Assembly: GCF_019263705.2 (NCBI RefSeq)
Contig: NZ_JADQDK010000001.1
Span: 4,650,001 to 4,714,000 of the forward strand
Direction: 5' to 3'
DNA from: Pseudonocardia abyssalis
GTDB lineage: Bacteria; Actinomycetota; Actinomycetes; Mycobacteriales; Pseudonocardiaceae
Length of the DNA: 64,000 bases
A program made the translations under genes and the position numbers. Shown piece after piece: positions 1 to 10,921 of this stretch. The notes under the pieces were generated by a model. That model saw only the letters and a list, made by a program, of their open reading frames with translations. It made no database searches and had not been told where the DNA came from. Every line of letters begins with the position of its first letter. The stretch's first letter is position 1.

Positions 1-272
1 GCCGGCGCCGCGATGGTCTCGACCCAGTGCGTCAGCCACTCCCCCACCGTCGGGACCCGGCCGACGTTGCGCACCGAACCGGCGTCCCGCTGCCGTTCGA
101 GGTCACGGACGGCCTTCACCGCGTCGGCCCGCGACTTGCGCATGACATGCCGGCGATCGGGCCGGCCGTCGTCCTTCACCCCGACCGTGACGCGGCCGTG
201 CCAGTAGTCGTCAGCGCCCTTGTAGATGCTCGACGCGCCGTTCGGCTCCCGCGACTTCTTCGCCTCGGTCAT
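1..272 (-). CDS. int: Tyrosine site-specific integrase, N-terminal part (cut by window edge)
   Basis: Only the first about 90 residues are inside the window; the catalytic domain lies to the left. The protein begins MTEAKKSREPNG and continues into SSIYKGADDYWHGRVTVG, the arm-binding AP2-like strand pattern seen at the N terminus of phage and AICE integrases. It then reaches the start of the SAM-like core-binding segment (VGEWLTHWVETI). The ATG overlaps the stop of the upstream excisionase gene by 4 bp, so the two are probably co-translated. In this family the enzyme recombines attP with the 3' end of a tRNA gene; the tRNA-Ser(GGA) remnant at 10716-10770 suggests the target. The family call is firm; the catalytic residues cannot be checked here. 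Confidence 0.85.
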   Translation of the reverse strand, partial: MTEAKKSREPNGASSIYKGADDYWHGRVTVGVKDDGRPDRRHVMRKSRADAVKAVRDLERQRDAGSVRNVGRVPTVGEWLTHWVETIAAP

Positions 273-478
273 GCCGCTCCCCCGAGCCTGCGCAGGGTCG
301 AGACGTAGGAGTCCAGGGCGTCGGTCGGGATGCGCCGCAGCCGGCCGATGCGGACGGACTCGACCTCACCGGCCGCAACGAGCGCGTACATGAGCGTGCG
401 GCCGATCCCGAGCCGTTCGGCGGCTTCCTCGACGGTCAGCACGAGCCGGAACGGGCGGGCCTGGTCGGTGGTGATCAC
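269..478 (-). CDS. xis: Excisionase-like MerR/HTH_17 DNA-binding protein
   Basis: A protein of 69 residues with the winged-helix pattern LTVEEAAERLGIGRTLMYAL followed by VRIGRLRRIPTDAL, the standard layout of Xis/AlpA-type recombination directionality factors. The GTG at 478 is chosen because it overlaps the stop of the upstream rep gene (GTGA) and leaves a family-length protein; a longer open frame upstream is only rep read in another frame. The stop overlaps the integrase ATG. Context and fold indicate a role in excision of the element together with the integrase. No catalytic activity is expected. Confidence 0.87.
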   Translation of the reverse strand: MITTDQARPFRLVLTVEEAAERLGIGRTLMYALVAAGEVESVRIGRLRRIPTDALDSYVSTLRRLGGAA

Positions 479-2148
479 GCTGCCTCCTCGGTTGCCGAAC
501 GGTTCTCCGGCGGTGCGCCGGCCAGGAGCTGGGCGGCGTCGTAGTCGGCCTTCCAGCGCTGTCTCTCCGAGATCGCCTGCAGCAGCAGCGCGGGCCGGGT
601 CGGGACGTCGGGATCGCCGGCCTTCGTGGCTTCCCACTCGAACGGCCCGTCATCGACGGCGTAGCCGGGCCGGACGCCGGTGGCGGTGAGCAGTTGCCGA
701 ACGAACGCGGCCCGCTCGCCCGCGTGATCCGCGAGGGTCTTTCCCGACCACTTCCGCGAGACCAGGACCCGGCGCCCGGCGATGCCGAGGTGTTCGGATC
801 GGTGGGCCTTGCCCTTGCACTGCCCCGACGCCATCGACAGCCGTGCGCCCTTGGGCTGCACCCCGTAGATCAACCACACCGGGCACCGCGGCGAGCACGG
901 AGTCACCCGCAGCTCGGCGACGAGGCGACGGTGGTGCTCCCGCTGCCGCTCGGTCGCGTCGTCGTCGAGGCCGGCGGCCCGGGCGACGTCCTTCATCAGG
1001 TACTTGGTCAGGTACCCGATGTGCCGCCCAGCCTCCTCCGTCCCGCCGAGGATCCCCTTCACGTGCACCTGCGCCCCGAACCGCACCACGTGCGACGGCT
1101 CGGTCAGCGTGGCCGGGTCGGTCGCCTCATCCCAGGTGGGCAACGGCTCCCGGGTGTCGGGGTCGACGAACCCCTTCGTCCGGTCGTCCCACCGGGGCAG
1201 GTCCTTGCCCGCGTACTTGACCTCGTCGTGAGCCGGCCAGAACACGCCGTGATCCGTGGCGGCCGCGATCGCCCGCAACTCCGCGCGCGGGATGCTGCCC
1301 CGGATGGCAGCGTGGAAATGCGGCGCGCCCCGGCGCTGGGGCTCGATCGTGCCGAAGTACTGCACGTCCCAGCCGACGCACCGGCGGGTGTTCTGCCAGA
1401 ACCGGTCCAGGATCTTCGGGAAGTGGATCGCGTCCCGAGCTGCCCGGCGGTAGTCGTAGTTCGCCGGGTCCAGCGCGGCCCCGTCCCCGTCCACCCGCCC
1501 GTACGAGTCGAGCGTGAGGGTCAGGAAGGTCGAGGGCCGGTACTTGTCGCCGAACACCTGACCGAGGGTGCGCTTGTCCACCGGCCGGCGCGGCAGGTCG
1601 GGCAAGTCCTGCCGGCGCCGCGTGGACCGCTTCACCGCCGGGCGGTCGGGGCGGTCGAGGGGTTCGAGCCGGCCCGTCACTCCCAGGCGCCGTAGTTCGT
1701 CGTCGACCACGGCTATGGTCTCCCGGATCTCCTCGCACTCCTCCTCGTCAGACGCGGCCCGGGCGTGCTGGTAGGCGACGTGCAGCTCCGCCCGGGCGGC
1801 CATGAGCTGCTTCTGCTCCGAGGTGGGGTCCGGCCGGGCCGGGATCGGCTCGTGCTCGAGGTGCCAGCCCTCCCGGCACTGGGTCATCCGGATCCGTCGG
1901 TTTTTCTCCGCGCACGGCTTGCACACGTCTTCGCGGCGGGCCCCGCAGGGGACGGGAACGACGTCGACCTTCCCGGAGGTGAGGTCTATCCGCCGGAGCG
2001 CAAGCGGGCGGACGCAGACGCCGTGGTCTTCGGCGAGCTTGCGGGCCACGTCCCCGGTGAGGGCCATGAGCGCCTTCTGCGCGCGGGTGAGCTGGTCGTG
2101 GTCTACAAAGCCGGCCGGAGCGGTGGTCGTGGTGTCGGTGGTGGTCAT
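475..2148 (-). CDS. RepSA-like replication initiator (HUH endonuclease)
   Basis: A protein of 557 residues, starting MTTTDTTTTAPAG. It has an N-terminal cysteine-rich segment (CGARREDVCKPC) of zinc-finger type. This is followed by the replication strand LTLTLDSYGRV, the HUH-type motif APHFHAAIRG and a later YLTKYLMKD block, which fits the tyrosine motif of rolling-circle initiators. This is the usual initiator of pSAM2-type AICEs, which nick the double-strand origin and replicate the excised circle. The ATG at 2148 overlaps the stop of the ftsK gene by 4 bp and the gene ends inside the xis start. The origin itself was not located. A longer reading frame towards 2364 lies inside ftsK and is rejected. 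Confidence 0.9.
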   Translation of the reverse strand: MTTTDTTTTAPAGFVDHDQLTRAQKALMALTGDVARKLAEDHGVCVRPLALRRIDLTSGKVDVVPVPCGARREDVCKPCAEKNRRIRMTQCREGWHLEHEPIPARPDPTSEQKQLMAARAELHVAYQHARAASDEEECEEIRETIAVVDDELRRLGVTGRLEPLDRPDRPAVKRSTRRRQDLPDLPRRPVDKRTLGQVFGDKYRPSTFLTLTLDSYGRVDGDGAALDPANYDYRRAARDAIHFPKILDRFWQNTRRCVGWDVQYFGTIEPQRRGAPHFHAAIRGSIPRAELRAIAAATDHGVFWPAHDEVKYAGKDLPRWDDRTKGFVDPDTREPLPTWDEATDPATLTEPSHVVRFGAQVHVKGILGGTEEAGRHIGYLTKYLMKDVARAAGLDDDATERQREHHRRLVAELRVTPCSPRCPVWLIYGVQPKGARLSMASGQCKGKAHRSEHLGIAGRRVLVSRKWSGKTLADHAGERAAFVRQLLTATGVRPGYAVDDGPFEWEATKAGDPDVPTRPALLLQAISERQRWKADYDAAQLLAGAPPENRSATEEAA

Positions 2149-3731
2149 GCGGGGCCTCCGATCGAGTGCAGCGCCGGGACGGACTGGAGGAACGGGCCGG
2201 CCTGGGCCGGGATGGCCAGCCCGGACGGGGTGGTGACGAAACGCTCCAGGTCCTTGATCACGTGATCGGGCACCCATGCGGAGCGGACGCGGAGGGGTTC
2301 GCGGATGCCCTCGCCGAACAGGTAGCCCACGCCCGGCTCGTGCTCCCCGATCCGGTTCGCCCACGCGCCCCGGTCGTAGGCGTGCTCGCCGAGGACCATC
2401 GACACGTGCGACTTGGAAGCGACGCGCAGGCAGATCCGGCGCGGGAACAACTCCCGGACCGGGACGGTGTCCTTCGTCGGCTCCTGCACGTAGCCGCGCA
2501 CCGAGTAACCCAGCGCCCGGCCCTGCGTGGTCAGGACGGCGACGCGTTCCACGATCGCTTCGCGGGTCTTCCTATCGCCGACGTAGCGGACCAGGGCGCC
2601 GATCTCGTCGAACTCGATCAGCTCCAACGGGAACTCCCGGCTGATCGGGACGACCCGCTTGTGGGTGGAGAACCGCTCCTTACGCGCGGTCATGCCGTCG
2701 ATGAGGTCGTCGAGCAGCGCGAGTGCGTCCTTGCTGGTTGAGGCGTAGCGGTGGAACACCCGCCGCCCGTAGGCCAGTTCCATGCCCTTGGGGTCGATGG
2801 CGGAGACCCGGACGAGGCCGTCGCGGATGGCCGGGGCCATGGACACGATCGGCCCCCAGGTGAACGAGTTCTTCCCGGCACCGGTGGAGCCGGCCATCAG
2901 GGTGTGGCTGCCTTCGATCGCCTGGAACCAGTCGGCGCCGTACTCGGTGCGCCCGGACCAGATCCGGCGGAAGTCGATGTGTTCCCCGGCCACGCCGTAG
3001 AGCGCCCCGAGCGGCTGCGACTCGACGATCTGGGCGAGCCGGTCGTGGCGCTGATAGTCGATCGACACCAGGTTCGGGCCGAGTTCGCGAACCTGGCAGC
3101 GGGTCACCCCGCGCGCCACGGCGAGCGATCGGGCGGCGGCGTCGAAGTCCTCCGGGGTCTGCCCCGGGACCAGGCGCACCCGGACCTCGTCCCAGGACCC
3201 GCCGGAACGGACCCCGACCACGCGCGGCACCTCGTCGGCGCGGCCGGTGGTCGTGGGTCGGACCATGGAGCGGCGGAACGGGTTGACCTGGACATGGACG
3301 CCCGGGTCTCGCTCGACGACGGTGAGGCCGCAGGCACGGAGCCAGCGGGGCATCTTGCGTGCGTAGATGGCCCAGCGCAGCCACCAGGCGCGCAGGTGGC
3401 GGCCGACCCACGGCTCGAACGAGTCGTGATCCCACCATCGCCAGCCGAGCAGCCCGGCCGCGATCACTGTGGCCGTGATCAGCAGTGAGGGCCAGCCCAG
3501 GAAGTAACACCAGGCCACGACGAGCGCGGTGCCGACGCTGGTGCGCCAGTGCCGCACGAGCCAGCGCCCGAGCTTCCACACGCCCTTCACCAGCAGCCAG
3601 ACCGTCACGAACACGACCGCCACCGCGGCCAGGGCTTCGAGGAGTTGGGTCAGCCAGCGGCCGAGCTTGTGCAGCGCCCACAGCCCGCCACCAGCGACCA
3701 GGGCGAGCAGGACGAGTTGCGCGGTGGTCAT
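2145..3731 (-). CDS. FtsK/SpoIIIE-type conjugative DNA translocase (Tra)
   Basis: A protein of 528 residues. Residues 1-50 and 67-96 hold hydrophobic membrane segments. The ATPase domain begins near residue 270, with the P-loop GSTGAGKN at 281-288 and a Walker B-like LELIEFDEIGAL ending near 380. In AICEs a single FtsK-like protein moves double-stranded DNA between mycelia, without a relaxase or type IV pilus. The residue after the P-loop lysine is Asn rather than the usual Ser/Thr; AICE Tra proteins often have Gly there, so variation at this spot is tolerated in the family. The start at 3731 shares one base with the upstream stop (TGATG), indicating translational coupling. Confidence 0.92.
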   Translation of the reverse strand: MTTAQLVLLALVAGGGLWALHKLGRWLTQLLEALAAVAVVFVTVWLLVKGVWKLGRWLVRHWRTSVGTALVVAWCYFLGWPSLLITATVIAAGLLGWRWWDHDSFEPWVGRHLRAWWLRWAIYARKMPRWLRACGLTVVERDPGVHVQVNPFRRSMVRPTTTGRADEVPRVVGVRSGGSWDEVRVRLVPGQTPEDFDAAARSLAVARGVTRCQVRELGPNLVSIDYQRHDRLAQIVESQPLGALYGVAGEHIDFRRIWSGRTEYGADWFQAIEGSHTLMAGSTGAGKNSFTWGPIVSMAPAIRDGLVRVSAIDPKGMELAYGRRVFHRYASTSKDALALLDDLIDGMTARKERFSTHKRVVPISREFPLELIEFDEIGALVRYVGDRKTREAIVERVAVLTTQGRALGYSVRGYVQEPTKDTVPVRELFPRRICLRVASKSHVSMVLGEHAYDRGAWANRIGEHEPGVGYLFGEGIREPLRVRSAWVPDHVIKDLERFVTTPSGLAIPAQAGPFLQSVPALHSIGGPA

Positions 3732-4048
3732 CACGCCACCTCCCGAGCAGTAGGGCCGGCCCAACGCTGGTGTGCGGCCTGCCGGGTCACACCGAGTCGG
3801 GAAGCAATCTCGCCCCAGGAGTAGCCAGCGGCCCGGAGGCCGGTGACGGCGTCGCCGATCGCGGCGTCGAGATCGGCCGACAACGCGGCAAGGTCGGGCA
3901 GCGCCTCGACGTCGCCCGCGGCGATCCGCCGCCCAGCCGCGCGGATGATGCGGCGGCCGAACGCGGCGAACTCGGAGTTCTCGACCACCCGCGGGGTGCG
4001 ACCGGCCGTCAAGGTGGCGTTGACGCGGAATCGGGTCCGGGCGTTCAC
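3731..4048 (-). CDS. Small helix-turn-helix protein (sigma region 4-like)
   Basis: A protein of 105 residues starting at GTG 4048 (VNARTRFRVNATL). The C-terminal third contains LRAAGYSWGEIASRLGVTRQAAHQRW, a helix-turn-helix of the sigma-70 region 4 or Trp-repressor kind. The N-terminal part is helical and charged, without a recognisable domain. The gene sits between whiB and ftsK, sharing bases with both, so it belongs to the transfer operon. Proteins of this shape are common in AICEs and usually carry no assigned role. A regulator of the element or an accessory DNA-binding protein is inferred. Confidence 0.8.
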   Translation of the reverse strand: MNARTRFRVNATLTAGRTPRVVENSEFAAFGRRIIRAAGRRIAAGDVEALPDLAALSADLDAAIGDAVTGLRAAGYSWGEIASRLGVTRQAAHQRWAGPTAREVA

Positions 4049-4347
4049 GCGGCCACCGCCCCGGGTCGGATCGACGAGACGCGGCGGCCGGCGAACAGGT
4101 CGGCGCGCTCGTCGGGGGTCAGACCGGCGGCGATGCCCCACCGTCGGGCCGGGTCCTCCCCGGTCATGACGTCAAGCAGGCAGTCGAGCCGGACCGGGCA
4201 GTCCGCGCAGATCTCCCGGGCTGCGGTGACAGCAGGCCCGAACGGGTCGAGGTCGAGGGGGTAGAAGATCTCCGGATCGACGTCGCCGCACTCGGCGTCG
4301 TTGCGCCAGTCCCGGCCGGTTGCGGTGGTTGTGGTCGTGGTGGTCAT
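4045..4347 (-). CDS. WhiB-family iron-sulfur transcription factor, element-borne
   Basis: A protein of 100 residues. It has the four-cysteine WhiB pattern: one Cys in DAEC, then Cys-x2-Cys in ICADC and a fourth Cys five residues later in RLDC. The G[IV]-type turn follows as RRWGIAAGLTPDER. In chromosomal family members the cysteines hold a 4Fe-4S cluster, and the protein binds the primary sigma factor to steer transcription. Here the gene is embedded in the transfer operon of the mobile element: the ATG overlaps the stop of the upstream hypothetical gene, and the end overlaps the next GTG. It may link transfer to redox or nitric-oxide state, which is inference. Confidence 0.92.
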   Translation of the reverse strand: MTTTTTTTATGRDWRNDAECGDVDPEIFYPLDLDPFGPAVTAAREICADCPVRLDCLLDVMTGEDPARRWGIAAGLTPDERADLFAGRRVSSIRPGAVAA

Positions 4348-4763
4348 GCCGTGACCCCCAGCTCGTGCCAGTTCGACAGGGCGCCAGCGGTGTCGGAGGT
4401 CAGTACGCGGTCGGCGCGGGCGCGCCAGTCCGCGGCGGAGTCGCGCCAGAACCGGGCCCGGTCGCGCTCCGTCCCGGCGGAGATGACGACGGCCTTGCCG
4501 TGCAGCGGGTGCAGGCCCGCGCGGTAGGTGAAGCGGGCCAGGACCCGCCACCACGCGGCCCGGCGGGCGCACACCCGGGCCAGGCACAGGGCCCGTTCGG
4601 CGTGCTCGACGTTGCTGCGGTGCGGGAGCGCGGCCGCGGCGTTGTAGGCGTCATCGAGGGCGCCCAACGCCGCGACGATGTGCGCGGGAACCTCGGGGAT
4701 CAGCCGCCCGACGTCCGGGGCGGGGTGCTTGGTGTCGTGGTGTGGATCAGGCGTGGTGCGCAT
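4344..4763 (-). CDS. Hypothetical element protein, 139 residues
   Basis: The product is helical, rich in Ala, Arg and Trp, and has no signal peptide, membrane segment or motif that I recognise. It begins MRTTPDPHHDTKH and ends NWHELGVTA. It is the first gene of the overlapping minus-strand block (4-bp overlap with whiB), separated by 107 bp from the pra-like gene upstream. Two central stretches (HAERALCLARVCARRAAWW and RDRARFWRDSAADW) look like paired amphipathic helices. Coding bias and tight coupling support a real gene. Function unknown. Confidence 0.72.
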   Translation of the reverse strand: MRTTPDPHHDTKHPAPDVGRLIPEVPAHIVAALGALDDAYNAAAALPHRSNVEHAERALCLARVCARRAAWWRVLARFTYRAGLHPLHGKAVVISAGTERDRARFWRDSAADWRARADRVLTSDTAGALSNWHELGVTA

Positions 4764-4870: not shown

Positions 4871-5305
4871 TCAGGCGGCCTCCCCGGAATTCGCGCGGGG
4901 CGCCGGCTTGCCCGAGCCGGCCTGCTGCGGGGCCCGCATCACCGAGGCGCGGAAGCTGTACGCGACGCGGGCCCGGCCGCCGTTCTCGTTGAGGTACGGC
5001 GTGACCGTGAGCCCGTCGAACTCGACCGGGCGGAACGGCATCCCCGGGATCGCCTCCGGCGGGACCGGCTGGTGCGGGGCGGAGATCTTCACCGTGACCG
5101 TCTTGGCGTCCTTGCGAGCGTCGGGGTCCGGGTCGAGCACCGACACCGACCACACCAACAGGCCCGAGTCCTTGTCGGTCGCCTGCACCGGACGCTCCTT
5201 CGTCGAGCGCTCGAAGTCCCGCACCGGCTCGACGTCCCCGACGACGTAGGCGCCGTGCGGGAACACGTCGTTGTGGTTGACCTTGAACTTGCCGTTGATA
5301 GCCAC
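4871..5305 (-). CDS. pra: Pra-like activator of element replication, integration and excision
   Basis: A protein of 144 residues beginning VAINGKFKVNHNDVFPHGAY. The N-terminal block (DVFPHGAYVVGDVEPVRDFE) and the central VTVKISAPHQPVPPEAIPGM match the layout of the Pra family. In pSAM2, Pra switches on replication and excision functions. The GTG at 5305 has a good Shine-Dalgarno (AGGAGA, read from 5311-5316). The C-terminal tail (from about residue 122) is Ala/Gly/Pro-rich and looks disordered. The gene is transcribed towards the rep/int block and away from the regulator at 5428, so the 122-bp gap between them is the obvious control point. Confidence 0.85.
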   Translation of the reverse strand: MAINGKFKVNHNDVFPHGAYVVGDVEPVRDFERSTKERPVQATDKDSGLLVWSVSVLDPDPDARKDAKTVTVKISAPHQPVPPEAIPGMPFRPVEFDGLTVTPYLNENGGRARVAYSFRASVMRAPQQAGSGKPAPRANSGEAA

Positions 5306-5427
5306 TCGGCTCTCCTATGTTTATCCCCCTAAACCGTAAAGCCGGACTGACTCCCGTTCGTTGAGGGGGGGTAAACACAAGGTAGGCGGGTGTCGCGAAC
5401 CTGTCAAGGACCCCTAAACTCATCACG
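5306..5427. promoter_or_regulatory. Divergent control region between pra and the HTH regulator
   Basis: A short, lower-GC gap with repeats. TGTTTATCCCC (5318-5328) and GGGGTAAACA (5368-5377) form an imperfect inverted pair. CCCCTAAAC occurs twice in direct orientation, at 5326-5334 and 5411-5419, the second just before the regulator's GTG. A repressor binding both sites could shut off pra and its own gene. The repeats are seen; the operator role is inferred from pSAM2, where the pra promoter is the repressed switch. Confidence 0.5.
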
Positions 5428-6255
5428 GTGAGTAGCCCTGACGACTTCGACGCGGTCCGGCGCGATCCGGACCCGATCCGTCGTGGACGCAGGGCGACCG
5501 AACTCATGTCGATCTACCAGCAGCGCGCGACAGAACTGGCCCGGCTACGACGCGAGGCCATCGAGGAAGCCCACCAGGGCGGCGGTCTCACCTACACCGA
5601 GATCGCGACGGCGCTCGGGATCACCAAGGGGCGCGTCACGCAGATCAGGTCCGGCGCGCCGGCCCGGGAGCGGGCGTTCTTCGGGGTCGGGCCCGTGCAT
5701 GTCGGGGTCCCGCTGCGCGAGGGCACCGACAGCCGGATGCGCAGCTACGTCGACGCGGCCGACCTGAAGACGCAGGAGGACACCGCGACGCTGCTCGGCA
5801 CGCTCGCCCTCACCGCGGAGCCGTTCACGATCCCGCCGGCCACGACGACCGTGCCGGACGGCGACGCGGTCATCATCTGTGGCCCGAAATCGGCCCCGAT
5901 CGGCGCTGATCTGCTCGACTCCGACCCACGGTTGGGCATGGTCCGCGAGTCGGACCGCTGGTGGATCGAGGACAAGAGGACCGGTGAGCGCTACGGCTCC
6001 CCCCTCTCCGAGAAGCCCCCGGGACACGAGGACATCGGCTACCTCTCCCGACGCGTAGACGAGGGCCGGGTGATCGTGCACATCGCGGGAATCCACAGCC
6101 CCGGCTCACGCGGCGTCGTGCACTACCTCGCCCACCACCTGGCCGAGCTGCATAGCCAGGTCGGCGCCGCATCGTTCAGTCTCGCCGTGCGCTGCCGCCT
6201 CGACGACCTCACCGTCGTCGACAGCGAAGCGTTTGCCGGCCCCCATCGCTGGTGA
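5428..6255 (+). CDS. HTH regulator with large unassigned C-terminal domain
   Basis: A protein of 275 residues, GTG start. Residues 34-75 form a sigma region 4-like helix-turn-helix (LTYTEIATALGITKGRVTQI). Residues 145-265 form a compact alpha/beta region with a glycine-rich turn (VIICGPKSAPIGADLL) and later a short block on an expected strand (VIVHIAGIHSPGSRGVVHYL). The first block resembles a nucleotide- or ligand-binding Rossmann-like start, but I cannot assign it to a named family. The gene is divergent to pra and overlaps the region of the phosphatase start, so regulator and phosphatase probably act together. The best guess is the element's maintenance repressor, with a sensor domain replacing the GntR-type KorSA of pSAM2. 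Confidence 0.75.
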   Translation: MSSPDDFDAVRRDPDPIRRGRRATELMSIYQQRATELARLRREAIEEAHQGGGLTYTEIATALGITKGRVTQIRSGAPARERAFFGVGPVHVGVPLREGTDSRMRSYVDAADLKTQEDTATLLGTLALTAEPFTIPPATTTVPDGDAVIICGPKSAPIGADLLDSDPRLGMVRESDRWWIEDKRTGERYGSPLSEKPPGHEDIGYLSRRVDEGRVIVHIAGIHSPGSRGVVHYLAHHLAELHSQVGAASFSLAVRCRLDDLTVVDSEAFAGPHRW

Positions 6256-6259
6256 CCCG

Positions 6260-7060
6260 GTGAAGGTGCACACAGCCACACTCGCCGGCGGACAGTCCAA
6301 CGCCGACCGCGTCTTCGTCACCGACCATTCGGTGATCGTCCTCGACGGAGCAACAGCATTCGAACCCGTCGACGTCGACCCCGGCACCTACGCCGGAACC
6401 CTCGGCAAAGCCATCGCGGAGCGCGTCGACCAGGCCCCCGACATCGCCACCGCTGTAACGGAGGCGATCCGCGCAACGAGCGCTGCGCTGCATCTCAACA
6501 ACACGGCATCGCCATCGAGCACTGTGACGGTTCTGCGAGCCCGAGACGACCACGCAGACCTCTACGCACTCGGCGACAGCTCGATCTACTACGGCACCGC
6601 GAGGCAATCCGCACAGCTCACCGATACCCGGTTGGCAGCTCTGCCCCTAACCGAGCGCGGACGCTACAAGGCAGCCCTCACAGCAGGGGCCGGCTACAAC
6701 GACGAGCACCGCGAGACCCTGGCCGCACTACAGCGTGCCCAGCGCCTCTATCGCAATGTGCGGGGCGGCTACTGGATCGCCGAGACCAACCCCGACGCCG
6801 CGCGGCAAGGGTTCACCGTCACCCTGCCGGCCGGCCAGATCGAATGGGCCGTTCTCGCCACCGACGGCGCAGCCGACCTGATCTGTCACCACGAGCGGCC
6901 ACGGTGGCCCGAGATCGCCCGCTACGACGACGCAGCCCTGTCGGAACTCCTCGACCGCTTGCACCAGTGGGAAGACGACGCCGATCCGCACGGTCAGCTT
7001 CTGCCCCGATCGAAGCGGCACGACGACAAGACCGTGGCAGCGGTCCCAGCCGTCTTCTAG
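6260..7060 (+). CDS. PP2C-family protein phosphatase-like protein
   Basis: A protein of 266 residues from GTG 6260 (VKVHTATLAGGQSNADR). A TTG nine codons upstream at 6233 is possible but weaker, since it would lie inside the preceding gene. The metal-binding aspartates of PP2C enzymes can be followed: D16 in NADRVFV, D29-G30 in VLDGATAF, LGDSSIYY in the middle, LATDGAADLI and HDDKTVA near the end. This suggests an active Mn/Mg-dependent Ser/Thr phosphatase. No partner kinase is visible in the element. The gene follows the HTH-sensor gene by 4 bp, so the pair is likely one transcript. Confidence 0.85.
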   Translation: MKVHTATLAGGQSNADRVFVTDHSVIVLDGATAFEPVDVDPGTYAGTLGKAIAERVDQAPDIATAVTEAIRATSAALHLNNTASPSSTVTVLRARDDHADLYALGDSSIYYGTARQSAQLTDTRLAALPLTERGRYKAALTAGAGYNDEHRETLAALQRAQRLYRNVRGGYWIAETNPDAARQGFTVTLPAGQIEWAVLATDGAADLICHHERPRWPEIARYDDAALSELLDRLHQWEDDADPHGQLLPRSKRHDDKTVAAVPAVF

Positions 7061-7515: not shown

Positions 7516-9150
7516 CTACTCGCCAACCCCCGCACGACCCATGCGGCGACGGAGCAAAAGGTGACGAGCCGACTGCAGGACCTGCAAGACATCCTTCGGC
7601 AACAACTTCAATTTCTCAACAAGGATTCTATTCGTTTCCTCGACTACGAGTTCGGAGTCTCCGCCGAACTTCCGCGTAAGTGCGTCAAGTACAGGTAGGT
7701 ACTCGGCGGCATTCGCCAGAGGCACTTTTAGTCTGCCGACTTCGGATGGAACAAGTTCCAGAACTCCCCCGCCGAAGCTGCGGCCCTCAATTTCTGCCGT
7801 AAGCAAGGTATAAGAGTTGTGGAAGAGGGCTACCAGGTCTCGCTCGCGTCCTGAGAACTCTGGCCGCATGACTCCCTTATAGATGGTGTCTGTTGTACCA
7901 ACCCCTGCATCATTTACAATCAGGCGCGGGTAAATGTGCGACCTCTTCGACATTAAGAGTTGCCCTATCGGAACAACAGGCACGCGATACCACGGATCCC
8001 GAATACGGCATTTGTAGCGGCCAGGAAGACCGTCCGCCTGTCCCCGAGCGATATACTCCGCAGGCTTCGGAAAGGCTACAACATCGGGGTTGCTCGCCGA
8101 GAAGTCGAGGAGCCATCGCGGCGCCTCACCTTCCGACATTTGCGCGAAGTCCTCATCTCTAAACACCAGCCCCTGCGCATGCCTGATGCGAGGCAACAGC
8201 GGGAGCCTCCAAGGGTGCAGCCTGTACTCATCTAGCGTTGCATCGGTGACCGTAAAGTATTGATTTGCGCCCGTAACCGTCGCGACACCGATACGAGCCA
8301 CGTCACCCAATGAATAGATGGAGGGAATCGACCGCATCGAGTCGAATGCACTTAGCTGCTCTGGTGTAAGCAGGTACCCGGTCCAGGTGGTAGCCGACGT
8401 CTCAACAAGATGTACCCATGTGTTCTGCACCGCGTGATCGCAGACAGTCAACTTTGGTTCACCCTGAGTCTCTCGATGAACTCGCCCACTCAGAACGACA
8501 ACTTCTTGAAGGACTCCGCTAAACGACTTCGGTGGAAACAAATCTACCCGGAGTTCTTGCGAATTGCAGCTTAGCCAAGTTCTGATCATTCGCGCCGAAA
8601 TACCAGTAAAGCATTCGGTGGGGATAATGAAGGCGAAAGCGCCTCCGTTTCGGACCATATTCAGACTCGCCAAAAGTACTGGGATCCATAGATTCGATAC
8701 TCCGGCCAGCGAAACACCGGCCTTCTCGCTAACCTCCTGCGCAGCCAGACGGTCGGACTCGCTGACAAACTGAAATCGAACATAGGGCGGATTCCCTACC
8801 GCAACATCGAACTGCTCAGACACACGGCAGGCCACTTCAAGCACACTGCCCGTAATCGTTTCTCCAGCAACGTCGAGATTTCTGATGGCAGTTGCCGTCT
8901 TGGCAGCTTCACTGGGGGCAATCTCAACGGCGACGACCCTGCTTATCGAAGACGAAGAAGCGTGCGCAGCAAGCCCCCGGATGAATTCGCCATCTCCAGA
9001 GCTGGGCTCCAAAAGCGAAAGGTGCTCCCTGCCCCCGACAAGCTCTTGTATTCGGTCAAAGCACACTTTCACGAGCGCTGGAGGCGAATAGAAACCGCCC
9101 CGCAGCTTTTCCGGACTGACCTCTGCTGCAAGTTTCACGGGTGCCTCCAC
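7516..9150 (-). CDS. N6-adenine DNA methyltransferase (restriction-modification)
   Basis: A protein of 544 residues. Motif X-like GGFYSPP at 18-24, the SAM-binding motif I LEPSSGDGEF at 47-56 and the catalytic NPPY at 120-123 are in the order of gamma-class (TaqI/Eco57I-like) adenine methyltransferases. The about 300 residues after the catalytic domain should contain the target-recognition region. The start is GTG 9150, leaving an 86-bp divergent gap to the nuclease; an internal GTG five codons on is also possible. Codon choice and GC are clearly lower than in the chromosome. It most likely protects DNA against the PLD nuclease next door. Target sequence unknown. Confidence 0.9.
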   Translation of the reverse strand: MEAPVKLAAEVSPEKLRGGFYSPPALVKVCFDRIQELVGGREHLSLLEPSSGDGEFIRGLAAHASSSSISRVVAVEIAPSEAAKTATAIRNLDVAGETITGSVLEVACRVSEQFDVAVGNPPYVRFQFVSESDRLAAQEVSEKAGVSLAGVSNLWIPVLLASLNMVRNGGAFAFIIPTECFTGISARMIRTWLSCNSQELRVDLFPPKSFSGVLQEVVVLSGRVHRETQGEPKLTVCDHAVQNTWVHLVETSATTWTGYLLTPEQLSAFDSMRSIPSIYSLGDVARIGVATVTGANQYFTVTDATLDEYRLHPWRLPLLPRIRHAQGLVFRDEDFAQMSEGEAPRWLLDFSASNPDVVAFPKPAEYIARGQADGLPGRYKCRIRDPWYRVPVVPIGQLLMSKRSHIYPRLIVNDAGVGTTDTIYKGVMRPEFSGRERDLVALFHNSYTLLTAEIEGRSFGGGVLELVPSEVGRLKVPLANAAEYLPVLDALTRKFGGDSELVVEETNRILVEKLKLLPKDVLQVLQSARHLLLRRRMGRAGVGE

Positions 9151-9236
9151 GACGTTCGGCGCTACTGGACACGCTAGAGCTGAGGTCTGACAGTCAGTTC
9201 AACCGAACGCGGCGTGTCGAGGTGACGGTGGGCCGC

Positions 9237-10466
9237 ATGACCCACAGGCTGCCGTCCGTGAAGGTAGTGCTTGCGACCCAGCCGTACGCAGACGGTGTGA
9301 ACCTGGCCAGCTTCTTGCAGCGTGCTGCAGCCAGAGATGATCTGACCAACCTGACCGCCGCAGTAGCTTGGGCGAAGCGCTCTGGGCTCAGCCGTGTGGC
9401 AGACGACCTCCGGAAGATCCGCGCTAGAGGCCAGGTGGAGCTCCTGGTTGGCATCAGTGAGGGGGGCGCCACGAGGCAAGGCCTGGAACTTGCCATGAGC
9501 CTCGCCTCGACTGCTTACGTATTTCACGACCCGACGGGGCGAACGTTTCACCCGAAGGTTTATTACGCGTCCGGTGATGCCAGCGGCATGGCCTACATCG
9601 GATCCAATAACCTCACGGCGGGTGGCTCCTACTACAACTACGAGGCGGGGGTTGAAGTAAGTCTCGACTTTAGCCAGGAAGAAGATCAGGCATTCGCAGA
9701 CGAACTGTTGGCCTATTTTGACAAGCTTCGCACTGACACTGACATCTGCAAAACGCTCGATCCAGATTTGTTGCGCGGACTGCTGGCAGACCCCAGCTAT
9801 CGGATCGGCGATGAAGACGTCCAAAGGCGGACGGCGAGCGTTGGCGACACCGACCAAGTGGCACCTGACGACGTGGACTCGGTCACGGAGGAGGAAACCA
9901 CGGAGGCGCCGATCTTTGGCAGGAGTCGCTGGCCGAAGGTTAAGCCGCCGCAGCAGCCACGCGCCGCAAGGCCATCCGTCAAGACTAGCGATCCCATCAA
10001 GGGCGAAGTAGACCCTGAGCGTCGTGACTTCGCAGATGTGCAACGCCGATGGTTCAAGAAGCTCAGCGCCTCGGACGCGCAGCAGCCGCCGCGACCCGGA
10101 AGCAACGTAACTGGCGCCCTCCGCCTCTCTCAAGCCCGACTCCCGATCGACCACAAGACCTACTTCCGTCAGGACTTCTTCGGCGATCAGATCTGGCGGC
10201 CCGATGAGCGCAGTTCCGGGCTTGAAGTCTGCTTCGTTGAGATGAAGGTCTTTGTCTACGGCCAAGACCTGGGCATCATGCCCTTCCGCATCGACCACAA
10301 AGCAAGCCGCATCGCCGACCAAAACAACGTTCCGACAGTCCTCAAGTGGGGCGGTCTGGGAGAGCGGCTGCGCCGAGAAGACCATAAGGGTGACTTCGTG
10401 ATCATCGAAGTGCTGAACGATGGCTACGTGCTCCGGATCCAGCTTGAGGAACCCTCTGCGCTCTGA
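9237..10466 (+). CDS. PLD-fold restriction endonuclease (BfiI/NgoFVII-like)
   Basis: A protein of 409 residues. The N-terminal half carries one phospholipase-D-type active site: H105-x-K107 in FHPKVYY, then GSNNLTAGG at 122-130. This is the half-site arrangement of metal-independent nucleases such as BfiI, which dimerise to build the full site. Residues 215-285 form a polar linker. The C-terminal part (VLKWGGLGERLRRED ... GYVLRIQL) resembles the B3-like DNA-binding domain of NgoFVII-type enzymes. ATG 9237 is preceded by GAGGTG; an in-frame GTG at 9222 is an alternative. Placement head to head with the methyltransferase supports a restriction-modification pair carried by the element. Confidence 0.82.
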   Translation: MTHRLPSVKVVLATQPYADGVNLASFLQRAAARDDLTNLTAAVAWAKRSGLSRVADDLRKIRARGQVELLVGISEGGATRQGLELAMSLASTAYVFHDPTGRTFHPKVYYASGDASGMAYIGSNNLTAGGSYYNYEAGVEVSLDFSQEEDQAFADELLAYFDKLRTDTDICKTLDPDLLRGLLADPSYRIGDEDVQRRTASVGDTDQVAPDDVDSVTEEETTEAPIFGRSRWPKVKPPQQPRAARPSVKTSDPIKGEVDPERRDFADVQRRWFKKLSASDAQQPPRPGSNVTGALRLSQARLPIDHKTYFRQDFFGDQIWRPDERSSGLEVCFVEMKVFVYGQDLGIMPFRIDHKASRIADQNNVPTVLKWGGLGERLRREDHKGDFVIIEVLNDGYVLRIQLEEPSAL

Positions 10467-10715: not shown

Positions 10716-10770
10716 CTTGGAAAGCGTGTTGGGTTCACGCCCTCGGGGGTTCGAATCCCCCATCCTCCGC
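10716..10770 (+). repeat. attR: Right attachment site: 3' part of tRNA-Ser(GGA)
   Basis: The 55 bp run from the anticodon loop (CTTGGAAAG, anticodon GGA) through the long variable arm and the T arm (GGGGGTTCGAATCCCCC) to the acceptor 3' strand CATCCTCCGC. The upstream sequence has no matching GGAGGAT 5' acceptor strand or D arm, so this is not a working tRNA gene. It is the duplicate left when an element integrates into a tRNA 3' end. The core identity segment with the left site should begin near the anticodon stem. Confidence 0.88.
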
Positions 10771-10921
10771 AGGTGGAGCCGGGTGTCTCGCAGGTCGAGG
10801 CGCCCGGTTCCGTCGTTGAGGGGCCGTGAGCGGCCGGTACCGGTCAGTTCGATCACCAGCTCTGGCCGGTGACCGTGCACCCCCGCTAACCTCGGAACCG
10901 GGTCCGCTTCCCGCGACACCC

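Follow-up and report, generated by a model that had tools for sequence, protein, structure and literature searches.

We have identified a pair of genes, one for an HTH protein and the other for a PP2C-type phosphatase, in an integrative element of Pseudonocardia abyssalis, and give about an even chance to the idea that the element is governed by this pair as its master switch, in which the repressor would be phosphorylated by host kinases and PP2C would reverse the phosphorylation. At the level of sequence and prediction, the pairing of the genes, the palindromes, the conserved residues of PP2C, and the predicted folds can be considered as established. The assignment of the HTH protein as the KorSA-equivalent repressor of both divergent promoters has good support, and the control of its activity by host Ser/Thr phosphorylation, with PP2C undoing it, has moderate support.

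The pair lies in a 64,000-nucleotide stretch (hereafter called the window) and is part of a pSAM2-type AICE (Table 1), for which a tyrosine integrase, a Xis-like protein, RepSA, an FtsK-like transfer protein, and tRNA att repeats were all found. The tRNA-Ser(GGA) gene with which attR pairs is located at G000:C1:4648905-4648990 of the 6.3-Mb host genome, to the left of the window, and the element is thus estimated to be ~11.8 kb. The product of the gene divergent from the HTH gene is at most a remote SCO3933/Pra relative, as judged from 22.1 bits (E 1.3e-4) against NF051478, which does not reach the cut-off of 80. The stretch of the element from the PP2C gene to attR also contains an Eco57I-type methyltransferase gene (7516-9150, minus strand) and a weakly PLD/NgoFVII-like gene (9141-10466, plus strand; nuclease Pfam scores under the cut-offs), and the two (7516-10466) are probably a restriction-modification cargo. 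The initial annotation had noted no kinase in the element; indeed, a genome-wide profile search for PF00069, the family to which this statement applies, gave no match between the att repeats, whereas the host genome has 24 matches, 23 of which are above the cut-off.

Table 1. Features of the P. abyssalis element in window coordinates
Feature	Position	Strand	Remark
Tyrosine integrase gene, start	1..272	-	remainder left of the window (L105:7056-8273)
Xis-like HTH_17 protein	269..637	-	
RepSA replication initiator	475..2364	-	ORF as listed; comparisons used 478-2154
FtsK/TraSA-type transfer protein	2145..3764	-	
WhiB-family gene	4045..4587	-	ORF as listed; part present in relatives within 4048-4362
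Divergent pra-like gene, 144 aa, remotely SCO3933/Pra-like	4871..5305	-	22 bits; position as in SCO3932/SCO3933 (PMC8584621)
Palindrome 1, GTTTATCCCCCTAAAC	5319..5334	.	13 bp ahead of the pra-like gene start
Palindrome 2, GTTGAGGGGGGGTAAAC, imperfect	5360..5376	.	
Palindrome 3, GTCAAGGACCCCTAAAC, imperfect	5403..5419	.	8 bp ahead of the HTH start codon
Putative HTH repressor-sensor gene, 275 aa	5428..6255	+	HTH at ~38-78 and alpha/beta domain at ~79-265
PP2C-type Ser/Thr phosphatase gene (predicted), 266 aa	6260..7060	+	start GTG at 6260
attR, 60-bp exact repeat of the 3' part of tRNA-Ser(GGA)	10716..10775	+	

Both genes of the pair, for which the initial annotation had proposed an HTH protein followed by PP2C, were confirmed at 5428-6255 and 6260-7060 on the plus strand. 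The HTH at residues ~38-78 is described as Sigma70_r4/ParB/KorA-like, and its match with Sigma70_r4 (23.5 bits) is slightly below the cut-off (24.1). The alpha/beta domain that had been left unassigned is real, as residues ~79-265 were predicted with confidence (mean pLDDT, 94.4), and a fold search with the model of the HTH protein revealed a GH67N/GH20b/BcsB-type accessory fold, the relatives of which belong to carbohydrate enzymes and BcsB; this known fold does not imply any unrelated enzymatic function. A search of BFVD with the same model gave no match at E <= 0.001. Among 103 members of the family, which matched 69 Pfam families, the 25 most-matched families are nearly all HTH models and contain neither a GH67N/GH20b/BcsB-type profile nor GntR/UTRA; STAT1_TAZ2bind, DUF6115, and CYNS_N were matched weakly in 2-3 of the 103 members each (E >= 0.055). 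A weak match with the KORA profile was obtained in 71 of the 103 members at E up to 1 (best, 0.0022), and the HTH protein in the window gave no KORA match at E <= 1. The latter protein also has no match with the GntR winged helix or UTRA in Pfam and hence lies outside the GntR/HutC class of KorSA. At the start of the recognition helix, residue 66 is Ser or Thr in all of the 109 proteins compared and is a possible candidate for the phosphosite, yet this is also a common helix cap; given that Ser/Thr at this position is retained in the Nocardia HTH proteins with no PP2C, the residue may be structural instead.

As listed, the ORF of PP2C (6233-7060) overlaps the HTH gene. In 11 aligned homologues from the protein collection, the start equals 6260 of the window (MKVHTA-like; two codons later in one case), and PP2C therefore most likely starts at 6260, 5 nt past the HTH stop. 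The protein matched PF13672 (PP2C_2) with 24.9 bits (cut-off, 24.0), and its model is confident (mean pLDDT, 96.1) with PP2Cs as the top PDB structure matches in Foldseek, namely human PPM1K (E 5.9e-10) and mycobacterial PstP (E 3.6e-9); a sequence search of PDB with this single protein gave no match. Furthermore, with numbering from 6260, D16, D29-G30, D106, D202-G203, and D255 are the same in all of the 65 PP2Cs that we chose for alignment, and, in line with the early claim that the metal aspartates are kept, the metal-binding ones would be among these residues by analogy with PP2C motifs. The profile, the fold, and the conserved aspartates thus place the protein in PP2C (PPM), and its activity is a prediction. 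In three records of Streptomyces plasmids, the PP2C match falls on a gene that carries a UTRA annotation, and among these genes are the 443-codon ones at L002:6728-8059 and L142:4010-5341. The L002 product is a PP2C-UTRA fusion, in which a PP2C part (identified by a custom profile without a Pfam match) precedes a UTRA domain (Pfam; residues 302-426), and such a predicted fusion connects the phosphatase with a domain for ligand sensing. In both L002 and L142, the 443-codon gene is followed by a gene for an ATP-binding protein, which is AAA_33/zeta-toxin-like in L002. Also, a Streptomyces plasmid (L145:2998-6281) has a PP2C-family gene with a protein kinase gene 431 bp on.

Homologues of the HTH protein amounted to 923 in protein databases at E <= 0.001 (the best 120 of 923 being listed), 61 loci in genome contigs (five being short HTH-only matches), and 22 plasmid records; some plasmid-like or phage-like contigs also carry the HTH gene, with 7 such loci in viral contigs. 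The distribution is patchy in Pseudonocardia, where 26 of 62 genomes have a homologue at E <= 0.001 with partial matches counted, and the protein is uncommon phylum-wide (7 of 296 genomes at E <= 1e-15, own host included). Of 81 unique HTH genes, for which matches under about 650 bp had been dropped beforehand, 79 were testable, and 70 of these have PP2C directly downstream on the same strand with a gap of 3-44 nt from the last aligned HTH codon. PP2C is also beside the HTH gene on the same strand in 21 of the 22 plasmid records (coordinates compared by hand), the exception being one Streptosporangium plasmid. The co-occurrence in other elements, which had been set as a test of the initial annotation, was hence found, and the adjacency at 70 of 79 loci indicates that the pair is not a chance neighborhood. 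The nine loci without downstream PP2C are L038 and eight in Nocardia. At L038:7651-8856, the PP2C similarity is split, and its middle part, which overlaps the start of the HTH gene, is on the opposite strand; either the DNA has been inverted here or the contig is misassembled. No PP2C remnants were detected at the eight Nocardia loci by tblastn at E <= 0.01. Seven of the Nocardia solo genes (L042-L046, L049, and L051) were noticed near a CutA-like gene, as read from translations; these seven, some of which keep the palindrome, look like a domesticated regulator of the element. Considering L038, the eight Nocardia loci, and the Streptosporangium plasmid, the HTH protein can persist without PP2C.

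Over 14 loci, the HTH protein is correlated with PP2C (rho 0.889) and with the pra-like protein (rho 0.868) and, less so, with rep (0.58) and ftsK (0.18); the range among the pra-like, HTH, and PP2C proteins is 0.82-0.89. Because rho of the pra-like protein is nearly equal, the co-inheritance reflects a cassette and does not prove interaction, and adjacency alone could explain it; direct co-evolution of HTH and PP2C was therefore dismissed as indistinguishable from cassette linkage. We also rejected a known defense system, as PADLOC gave no match at E <= 1 with either protein, and a phage origin, as the HTH protein had no match in 50,697 phage records. The PP2C of L141 matches one unannotated phage record.

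Side-by-side comparison of upstream regions revealed the three palindromes between the divergent genes. In its strict form, GTTTA-N5-7-TAAAC, the motif occurs as a single copy in the 6.3-Mb host genome, at 5319 of the window. The counts cover 80 unique loci, not including that of the window, for which 200 bp or more of upstream sequence was available; the strict motif had 48 copies in 17.2 kb of upstream regions versus 0 in 1,008,474 bp of flanks and was present at 40 of the loci. The loose motif was present at 60 of 80 loci (at least two copies at 46 and three at 19), with 125 copies upstream versus 79 in the flanks, and the commonest spacing was 43 bp. Twenty of the 80 loci, L004 among them, were without even the loose motif, and five of the eight PP2C-less Nocardia loci retained the motif. 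L070 and L072 share another recognition helix (TRARVGQ) and have an upstream palindrome, GCAAG-N5-CTTGC, at a similar place; among the plasmid/viral loci with other helices, a palindrome was resolved for these two and not for L003-L006, L069, L071, and L073-L075.

In pSAM2, KorSA represses its own promoter and pra, and Pra activates repSA, xis, and int (PMC8584621). In Streptomyces coelicolor, SCO3932 is divergent from the pra homologue SCO3933 and binds two sites in their common intergenic region, where the palindromes are positioned in our element, and SCO3932 is also reported to activate secondary-metabolite promoters (PMC8584621). The element shares the core of RepSA, TraSA/FtsK-like protein, and integrase with pSAM2, and a repressor gene is located likewise. 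Given this match in geometry, the HTH protein is likely to repress the pra-like gene and to regulate its own. KorSA and SCO3932 are, however, GntR/HutC proteins (PMC8584621), whereas an unrelated HTH and GH67N-like protein with a PP2C partner is found here.

A pair of plasmids provides our best evidence that the HTH protein would act as a KorSA-like repressor and that the phosphatase would belong to this function: the Micromonospora maris plasmid (L004, HTH-PP2C) and a Verrucosispora plasmid (GntR-PP2C) have a common 4-kb divergent block with 84% DNA identity that ends within the intergenic region. The HTH and GntR regulators had no BLASTP match with each other, and the PP2Cs are 35% identical, compared with 61-91% for five neighboring proteins. 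The GntR version has TCTGTATGCAGAC twice (found by eye), and the intergenic region of L004 has only degenerate GTTTA look-alikes, failing even the loose motif. In terms of gene content, the HTH gene has apparently been exchanged for a GntR gene between these two related plasmids. The initial annotation had put the pair in the repressor slot, where pSAM2 has a GntR-type protein, and the divergent pra-like gene, the conserved palindromes in between, and this apparent exchange agree with that placement. The order of GntR and PP2C is, according to annotation, also found on plasmids of Amycolatopsis japonica and Kitasatospora as well as that of Verrucosispora; L137 has a GntR gene, PP2C (no Pfam match; identified by custom profiles), and then a Nudix gene.

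In a tree of 137 PP2Cs built by a quick method, the label of following an HTH gene required 7 changes against a mean of 42.1 when the labels were shuffled 500 times (0 of 500 as low), and the HTH-linked PP2Cs formed two parts of 30 and 54 rows. The eight GntR-linked PP2Cs required 6 changes against a shuffled mean of 7.9 (3 of 500 as low) and were scattered amid chromosomal PP2Cs, which suggests repeated recruitment rather than one kept partner. With near-copies counted, 102 of 157 PP2C places are after an HTH gene, 10 are after a GntR gene, and 45 are after neither, so that similarity to PP2C is not sufficient to define the system; the label of following a GntR gene comes from a four-sequence profile and is backed for L137 (Pfam) and for L139, L140, and L141 (annotation) only. 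At 27 of the 45 places, the upstream frames were inspected by eye, and several read as ordinary chromosomal genes and others as non-coding frames. At L162 and L165, a PP2C that belongs to the wider family (at ~1500) is preceded by a frame that reads MarR-like; a MarR-type regulator with PP2C is perhaps a third kind of regulator-PP2C pair.

We thus propose that the HTH protein would occupy operators of the GTTTA-N5-7-TAAAC type in the region that separates its gene from the pra-like gene and shut off both divergent promoters, by which the pra-like gene would be silent and the HTH gene autoregulated. With the pra-like gene off, the element would stay integrated, as Pra activates repSA-xis-int in pSAM2. 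Host Ser/Thr kinases would then phosphorylate the HTH repressor and alter its activity, and PP2C, presumably co-transcribed with the repressor gene, would take the phosphate off; the balance between the host kinases and the phosphatase of the element would set quiescence versus replication, excision, and transfer. PP2C most simply opposes host kinases, since 23 PF00069 kinases are in the host and none in the element, and the GH67N/BcsB-like domain might serve as an oligomerization or ligand/partner-binding part. The palindromes, the pairing at most of the loci, the apparent exchange with GntR, the PP2C-UTRA fusion, the conserved residues of PP2C, the clustering of the HTH-linked PP2Cs, the kinases of the host, and the KorSA/Pra precedent count for the master switch; counting against it are the HTH loci without PP2C, the scattered GntR-linked PP2Cs, the score of the pra-like protein under the cut-off, and the 20 of 80 loci, including L004, with no motif.

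As the target of PP2C, we prefer the repressor itself. Alternatively, though we regard this as rather unlikely, the repressor might be autonomous with a ligand bound to its C-terminal domain, and PP2C might act on host phosphoproteins or on another protein of the element so as to damp host kinase signaling or kinase-based defense upon induction. The association of PP2C with two unrelated types of repressor, one of which (GntR/UTRA) already has a ligand domain, would be consistent with such an autonomous repressor, and so would the scattered GntR-linked PP2Cs and the motif kept at PP2C-less Nocardia loci. In the exchange pair, nonetheless, PP2C differs along with the regulator far more than the neighbors do, and the strong clustering of the HTH-linked PP2Cs fits better with a repressor-linked role, though a host target would also be compatible with both observations.

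It is improbable that the HTH protein is not a repressor but an activator or a sigma-like factor: the HTH is Sigma70_r4-like, and the records of many plasmid homologues name them sigma-70 family proteins, but Pfam and NCBIfam scans of the protein in the window gave only a region-4-like HTH and did not detect sigma region 2, and the palindromes near both start codons as well as the apparent exchange with GntR fit repression. Even less probable is dephosphorylation of a small molecule by PP2C, with the GH67N/BcsB-like domain sensing that molecule. The carbohydrate enzymes and BcsB as fold relatives of the domain, together with the Nudix gene (L137) or the ATP-binding-protein gene (L002 and L142) after PP2C, could be explained in this way; the nearest structures to PP2C are, however, protein phosphatases, and GntR repressors without that domain also have PP2Cs.

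The plasmid RK2 also has repressors, KorA (TrfB) and KorB (PMC2680271, PMC11790492). The operators of KorA, GTTTAGCTAAAC, and KorB, TTTAGCCGCTAAA, as printed in PMC2680271, have the half-site GTTTA/TTTAG in common with our palindromes (PMC2680271, PMC11790492), but the gap between GTTTA and TAAAC is 2 bp in the KorA operator (PMC2680271) and 5-7 bp here. The C-terminal domain of KorA differs from that of the HTH protein. To our knowledge, no phosphatase belongs to the KorA/KorB system of RK2. In ICEBs1, RapI-PhrI and ImmR-ImmA provide a precedent for a second protein setting the state of the repressor, as would be the case here, although ICEBs1 uses Rap proteins and a protease in place of PP2C. 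Bacterial PP2Cs like PstP resemble our PP2C in the predicted fold and the conserved aspartates; unlike those, the PP2C here neighbors a repressor gene in a mobile element that has no PF00069 kinase of its own. Pra, GntR, XRE, and WhiB are given as AICE regulators in PMC3218068, and the word phosphatase is absent from the main texts of PMC3218068 and PMC8584621. Among the matches listed in open-licence PMC, furthermore, none dealt with PP2C in AICE or another integrative element by its title or the start of its abstract. Taken as a KorSA-like circuit, the switch would be new in the architecture of its repressor and in having a phosphatase.

As far as we know, inducers of AICEs and many actinobacterial plasmids mostly remain obscure. 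More generally, and as a tentative proposal, many actinobacterial AICEs and conjugative plasmids might read host Ser/Thr-kinase signals through an exchangeable repressor (GH67N-like HTH or GntR) and PP2C, by which replication and transfer would follow host phosphorylation. Ser/Thr kinases are numerous in the hosts, with 23 above the cut-off in this genome. Actinobacterial hosts often have only one annotated Ser/Thr phosphatase (PMC6554272), and a phosphatase of the element's own beside its repressor would be a direct and testable link between host signaling and horizontal gene transfer, with the palindromic motif allowing the regulated genes to be read from sequence. If this is true, the element may sense the phosphorylation state of its host before copying and moving.
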